Assembly: GCA_016184005.1 (NCBI GenBank)
Contig: JACPDL010000002.1
Location: 1 to 64,000 of the forward strand
Direction: 5' to 3'
Length of the DNA: 64,000 nt
Origin: Candidatus Aenigmatarchaeota archaeon
Lineage (GTDB): Archaea > Aenigmatarchaeota > Aenigmatarchaeia > GW2011-AR5
Shown here: positions 56,379 through 59,530 of the stretch, in pieces
Layout of the letters: each line of letters begins with the position of its first letter
Numbering within the stretch: position 1 is the stretch's first letter
Notes under the pieces: model-generated
The model's database searches: none
What the model was told of the DNA's origin: nothing
The model's input: only the letters and a program-made list of their open reading frames with translations
Program-made: the position numbers and the translations under genes

Positions 56379-56601
56379 TGCGAGAGGGCGGATTCGAACC
56401 GCCGAACGGACTAACCGACAAGATTACCCCGTTTTATGTGTTTTTTGATTGACCTTTCTTTTGAAAGAAAGGTCACTTGAGTTTCGCAATCATCTTGTTT
56501 TTCATGACTCAAGATAGCACTTGCGCCTTTTTCTGTAATCCTTTCCGTTAACGCTTTTCGCGTGAGTCGAAAAGGGTTAGACCAGGCTTGGCTACTCTCG
56601 C
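56379..56601 (-). tRNA. tRNA-Leu(CAA) with three introns (D-loop, 30/31, 37/38)
   Basis: mature model GCGAGAG-TA-GCC-AAGCCTGGTC..-GGC-G-CAAGA-CTCAAGA-TCTTG-T-CGGTTAGTCCG-TTC-GGCGG-TTCGAAT-CCGCC-CTCTCGC-A; introns about 56528-56575, 56483-56519, 56425-56475. Confidence 0.85.
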
Positions 56602-57356: not shown

Positions 57357-57494
57357 TGCGGTAGTCGGGACTTTCGTTGCCTCTACTTGCTTTTTTCCGC
57401 TTTTTCCGCAAGCGCTTTTGTGTTAACAAAAGGGCTTTTCGAACCCGAGTCTCGTCCGTGGCAGGGACGTGTCCTACCGCTAGACTACTACCGC
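57357..57494 (-). tRNA. tRNA-Gly(GCC) with 67-nt T-loop intron
   Basis: GCGGTAG/CTACCGC, GTCTAGCGGTAGGAC, CGTCC-CTGCCAC-GGACG, TCGGG-TTCGA[intron 57372-57438]GT-CCCGA, A73. Confidence 0.88.
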
Positions 57495-59347: not shown

Positions 59348-59509
59348 CGCCGGCGGCAGGATTTGAACCTGCGCGCGCATCCGCGACAAGAAGTACCAGA
59401 GTACTTCATATCACTCACGGCGCTCTAGCTCTCAAGGATCGTCGTCATCTCAAGCCTTATCGGATCTTGAGCTAACCCTAGCGCATTTGCCAGATTCTGC
59501 CACGCCGGC
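59348..59509 (-). tRNA. tRNA-Ser(TGA) with introns at 30/31 and in the variable arm
   Basis: GCCGGCG/CGCCGGC, GCA-GAATCTGGCAAA-TGC, CTAG[40-nt intron 59438-59477]C-CTTGAGA-GCTAG, 52-nt variable region, GCAGG-TTCAAAT-CCTGC, G73. Confidence 0.8.
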
Positions 59510-59530
59510 TTCATTAAAGATTGGCGATTA

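Follow-up and report, generated by a model that had tools for sequence, protein, structure and literature searches.

A tRNA-Ser(UGA) gene of Aenigmatarchaeota with putative introns in both the anticodon stem and the variable arm

Introduction

Several crenarchaeal tRNA genes contain introns that are located in the anticodon stem, outside of position 37/38, e.g., those encoding tRNA-Trp in A. pernix and tRNA-Leu(CAG) in S. tokodaii, and cleavage has been shown for S. tokodaii tRNA-Leu(CAG) (PMC4307357). An intron of the variable arm is known in the tRNA-Lys of A. pernix (PMC4307357), and archaeal tRNA genes with multiple introns have also been described (PMC4033280, PMC3218864). For Caldiarchaeum subterraneum, introns in the D, V and T arms have been reported, as well as single genes with multiple introns (PMC3293823). 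The existence of anticodon-stem introns, of variable-arm introns and of several introns in one gene is already established in these archaea (PMC4307357, PMC4033280, PMC3293823, PMC3218864). Some archaeal endonucleases are known to cut relaxed BHB motifs, and lysine-bearing loops near the active site of the endonuclease go together with relaxed BHB cleavage (PMC12397907, PMC6379350).

Here, we describe a gene from a 919 kb Aenigmatarchaeota genome that very probably encodes a functional tRNA-Ser(UGA) and carries two archaeal BHB-type introns, both at non-canonical positions. A comparison of its splicing endonuclease with those of named genomes places the lineage in this group. Like the non-canonical BHB introns of crenarchaeal groups such as Thermoproteales, Aeropyrum and Sulfolobus, these putative introns are short and lie outside of position 37/38, at anticodon-stem and variable-arm sites. 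In contrast to the crenarchaeal examples, they occur in a DPANN lineage, with both kinds in a single class II tRNA-Ser gene, and the Ser genes of several families share the variable-arm site. The V-arm introns and the multiple introns in one gene reported for C. subterraneum are similar features of a different lineage. We found no description of the tRNA introns of Aenigmatarchaeota in the open-access literature; the novelty of the present case may lie in the lineage, in the recurrent variable-arm site of tRNA-Ser and in an unusual splicing endonuclease.

Structure of the tRNA-Ser(UGA) gene

The gene occupies positions 59348-59509 on the minus strand of the window (the whole stretch of DNA analysed here, 64,000 nucleotides of contig 3 of the host genome). 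The Rfam model RF00005 matches exactly these coordinates with 36.2 bits, and no tRNA was detected in the window by ARAGORN. The gene exceeds a chance match, since its score with a Ser model was 66.2 bits, the training set of this model having included the gene's own spliced form. Below, base i of the precursor corresponds to window base 59510 - i. Two relatives were especially useful for comparison: GW2011_AR5 (G022), from the same family as the host, whose Ser(UGA) gene is L106, and the other genome of the host's genus (G001), which matches RIFCSPHIGHO2_01_FULL_AR5_44_11 and whose Ser(UGA) ortholog is L058.

Three exons can be predicted, all on the minus strand. Exon 1 (59478..59509, 32 nt), delimited by the Rfam match and by alignment with the uninterrupted Ser(UGA) gene of G022, corresponds to the 5′ strand of the acceptor stem, the D arm and positions 26-30. 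Exon 2 (59415..59437, 23 nt) encompasses position 31, the loop CTTGAGA with the anticodon TGA (59432-59434), the 3′ strand of the anticodon stem and the initial 10 nt of the variable region; the identical sequence CTTGAGAGCTAG is present without interruption in L106. Exon 3 (59348..59378, 31 nt), recognized by reading of the sequence and by alignment, includes the 3′ strand of the variable stem, GCGC, followed by GC, the T arm, the 3′ strand of the acceptor stem and G73.

The putative intron of the anticodon stem

The first-pass annotation of this DNA had claimed that the removal of 40 nt after CTAG produces the anticodon arm CTAGC-CTTGAGA-GCTAG with anticodon TGA. All these elements are indeed present on the minus strand, in the order CTAG, 40 nt and CCTTGAGAGCTAG. 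The putative intron 1 (59438..59477, precursor bases 33-72) would thus be inserted between tRNA positions 30 and 31. It is missing in the G022 ortholog, in which the same anticodon arm runs without any break (CTAGCCTTGAGAGCTAG). The Ser(UGA) genes of G007 and G020 are also uninterrupted in the anticodon arm, and their variable regions measure 16 nt.

A BHB motif can be drawn at the exact boundaries of this intron, with bulges AG↓G and AU↓C and a central helix CGCU/GACG in which three of the four pairs form, together with a weak outer helix. Its inner helix begins with G34-C66, at the base expected from BHB geometry, and the score at the exact boundaries was reached by only 13 of 20,000 shuffles of the intron. 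Introns at 30/31 are also present in the Ser(CGA) genes of G022, G009 and G024, and introns at 29/30 in four more Ser genes, all with the same BHB register; in most of them the central helix is better than in the present gene. The site and the length that had been proposed for intron 1 are therefore supported exactly, by the uninterrupted ortholog, by the BHB register at the predicted bases and by the similar organization of Ser genes in the family. Alternative 17-nt anticodon arms, assembled by hand with fewer or more bases on the 5′ side, had three to four stem pairs instead of five. In the opposite BHB orientation, with the 5′ part of the intron and exon 2 as central helix, no pairing was obtained.

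The putative intron of the variable arm

The 52-nt variable region, which separates position 43 from the T stem, includes the hairpin GAAGTAC-tctg-GTACTTC, as had been noted in the first-pass annotation. Uninterrupted variable regions in the Ser genes of relatives measure 14-17 nt, with 16 nt in L106 (AGTGCCTTTGGCACAT), and the host's own Ser(GGA) and Ser(GCT) genes have variable regions of 15 and 17 nt, respectively. Because of this narrow range, the 52-nt region can be considered to hold about 36 extra nucleotides. Seven other Ser genes of the class, with UGA, GCT, CGA and GGA anticodons, also contain inserts in the variable arm, which differ from one another in length and sequence. In these seven genes, 15-18 nt (mostly 16) remain after removal according to the best or near-best BHB, and the cut is located just 5′ of the variable stem's 3′ strand, the same place as here.

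The BHB motif of the variable arm is the best one among all cut pairs in the whole precursor, with four of four central pairs and a 4-nt 5′ bulge, and its score was equalled by 4 of 3,000 shuffles of the variable region. Two to three registers are nearly equal: cuts after bases 95 and 131 (removing 36 nt and leaving 16) and after bases 96 and 130 (removing 34 nt and leaving 18) obtained the same score. We favour the 95/131 cut because the BHBs of the seven other Ser genes leave mostly 16 nt and are cut at the same place. The second intron would most likely correspond to the 36-nt segment 59379..59414 on the minus strand, containing the hairpin, with the 34-nt segment 59380-59413 as an alternative. 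The intron that had been suspected in the variable arm is thus supported by the 14-17 nt arms of orthologs and paralogs, by the BHB-type motif and by Ser introns located at the same place in the class.

The predicted mature tRNA and its processing

Removal of the 40 and 36 nt produces an 86-nt class II tRNA with G73, identical in length to the G022 ortholog. Aligned with 10 Ser tRNAs of relatives, this product corresponds to a restored standard tRNA, and it folds with acceptor, anticodon, variable and T stems, the variable arm comprising 4 bp in 16 nt. The anticodon UGA, the long variable arm and G73 fit a class II tRNA-Ser, and the first assignment to Ser, based on the anticodon TGA and on G73, stands. 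The four pairs of the variable stem hold in the host's Ser(UGA) and in two Ser tRNAs of a relative from the same order, with both sides changed at three of these pairs, in a structure that had been fitted to those same three sequences. The gene does not encode a tRNA-Sec, which is excluded by the anticodon (UGA and not UCA), the 7-bp acceptor stem and the 3-bp D stem.

In the processing pathway that we propose, the whole precursor would be transcribed as one molecule and EndA would cut at 30/31 and towards the 3′ end of the loop in the variable arm, with the 5′ boundary of the second intron placed at its most likely base. The RtcB ligase would then join the exons, with predicted junctions of CTAG to CCTTGAGA and of GTGA to GCGC (or GTGAG to TGCGC), to give the 86-nt class II tRNA with its 4-bp, 16-nt variable arm.

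The strict hBHBh′ motif, which describes only the canonical subclass (a 4-bp helix, two 3-nt bulges and both flanking helices), is formed at neither site; relaxed BHB motifs beyond chance are found at both, in the same register as in relatives. The first-pass annotation had suggested folding of the precursor as a check. Relaxed motifs can be formed at 30/31 and in the variable arm, but free-energy prediction does not prefer them: the most stable structure predicted for the precursor differs from the BHB form (-71.8 versus about -51 kcal/mol for the cloverleaf with both motifs). These energies do not exclude splicing, because some archaeal endonucleases cut relaxed motifs, yet they provide no positive support for it.

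Conservation and alternative interpretations

The comparison establishes the predicted exon structure, the lack of both putative introns in the close ortholog and the recurrence of both sites in relatives. The ortholog of the same genus, L058, has the same length and differs by two substitutions, one in each intron, and all 86 exon bases are unchanged, whereas matched flanking segments are 86-94% identical between the two genomes. This conservation argues against a decaying tRNA pseudogene with insertions, an interpretation suggested by the fact that ordinary tRNA finders miss the gene or give it a low score. We consider it highly improbable, since in addition every helix pairs, most tRNA genes of the genome are interrupted likewise, and the search of the host genome (of which about 6% is missing) gave no second Ser(UGA) gene. 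The Ser(UGA) gene is probably essential.

Another scenario is that the 30/31 intron alone is removed and that the mature tRNA keeps the 52-nt variable arm with its long hairpin. Taken alone, this hairpin has a very high predicted stability (-25.3 kcal/mol, z = -4.0), and this minimum-energy pairing differs from the BHB form of the arm, which reaches -18.6 kcal/mol. However, one of the L058 substitutions breaks the C-G pair that closes the tetraloop, so the tip of the hairpin is not conserved; moreover, a retained arm would depart from the 14-17 nt of the host's Ser(GGA) and Ser(GCT) and of the Ser(UGA) of relatives, and the inserts of the seven other Ser genes, although variable, can be reduced to about 16 nt with a BHB. 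Retention of the arm thus appears very unlikely. A variant of the two-intron interpretation, in which the boundaries would be different, deserves somewhat more credit, although we still regard it as the less probable version: the variable-arm intron could be the 34-nt one, leaving 18 nt, as permitted by the tie between the two cut pairs, or the anticodon-arm intron could be shifted. On the other hand, five anticodon-stem pairs and the loop CTTGAGA are obtained only by the 40-nt excision at 30/31, which matches the ortholog, and it is the removal of 36 nt that yields the 16 nt present in orthologs and in spliced relatives. We thus retain two introns of 40 and 36 nt as the preferred interpretation.

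The splicing enzymes EndA and RtcB

Both enzymes of the proposed pathway are encoded in the host genome. RtcB is represented by a single uninterrupted protein (PF01139 match, 577.9 bits). In G001, the RtcB encoded at G001:C38:9867-12665 lies in one frame of 990 aa, in two parts separated by about 1.4 kb, resembling an intein insertion. A single EndA was detected, 202 aa in length (gene at G000:C3:114081-114527), with PF01974 and PF02778 domains; it was matched by both PF01974 and TIGR00324. Searches with these two models, at E values up to 10, revealed nothing convincing as a beta or second subunit.

The third catalytic residue of the M. jannaschii EndA is numbered Lys156, as we take it from the usual numbering and from the chain length. 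The residue of the host EndA that aligns to it without gap is Ala, and in the related sequences of this lineage Lys never occurs at this position, Ala being usual and Ser or Thr present in a few; Aenigmatarchaeota EndA sequences with Ala (sometimes Ser or Thr) at this position are encoded at L030:1198-1806 (+), G000:C3:114234-114512 and about 80 related loci (L139-L229). According to a review, all four archaeal endonuclease types conserve Tyr, His and Lys (PMC6379350). The splicing endonuclease of this lineage appears, from these alignments, to have lost its third catalytic residue, which we consider as a lead and not as a result about the tRNA. For the proposed cutting by EndA, this apparent loss weighs on the negative side.

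The loop between the catalytic Tyr and His of the host EndA is rich in lysine (VQLKKGPKSAKEHTKW) and matches in length the corresponding loop of the N. equitans catalytic subunit (VIPKKGKRSEREHSKW); it is strongly conserved in Aenigmatarchaeota EndA, typically as VxLKKGPK. The enzymes of N. equitans, (alpha-beta)2, and of ARMAN-2, epsilon2, have broad specificity, which the N. equitans enzyme shares with others that bear lysine in loops close to the active site (PMC6379350). Unlike these, the host has one EndA gene, no detected beta subunit and Ala at the Lys156 position. It is conceivable, although we find it unlikely, that a single EndA with a Lys-to-Ala change and a lysine-rich loop is responsible for splicing relaxed-BHB introns in unusually large number, among them those at the recurrent variable-arm site of tRNA-Ser, a lysine of the loop replacing the lost one. 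Cutting of relaxed motifs by an EndA devoid of the usual catalytic Lys can now be tested.

Other interrupted tRNA genes

Only 14 tRNAs score above the Rfam cut-off in the host genome, and nearly all of them are interrupted. A tRNA-Leu(CAA) gene at 56379-56601 of the window, on the minus strand, was missed by Rfam even at E = 10 and was recognized by a scan for T arm and acceptor stem combined with reading of the sequence by hand. It would contain three introns, in the D loop, at 30/31 and at 37/38. In its 30/31 insert, a perfect central helix (CGCA/TGCG) is accompanied by the bulges AG↓T and AA↓A, in agreement with the earlier remark that the 30/31 site is shared with tRNA-Leu. Because standard tRNA finders miss such genes, the tRNA sets of Aenigmatarchaeota look incomplete; careful splicing combined with comparison to relatives recovers genes that the finders miss. 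The present case suggests that the DPANN Aenigmatarchaeota are exceptionally rich in such introns, perhaps to a degree comparable with Thermoproteales.

Introns of about 67-97 nt are also present in the T loop, at one site after GGTTCRA, in Gly(GCC), Ser(GCT), Ser(GGA) and other tRNA genes (window 57357-57494 (-), L237, L015 and L236). Those of the Gly and Ser(GCT) genes have AAAGCCCTTT...AAAGCGCTTGCGGAAA in common, as if copied between genes. The Gly(GCC) gene of the same-genus genome lacks the T-loop intron but carries an insert near the variable region. The Ser(GGA) gene (L236, reverse complement, near G000:C5:27767) has an apparent insert directly 3′ of the acceptor stem (GCCGAGAT-aatgaaactatctcgta-CGCG), which is missing in its same-genus counterpart L235; L236 additionally contains 29/30 and T-loop introns.
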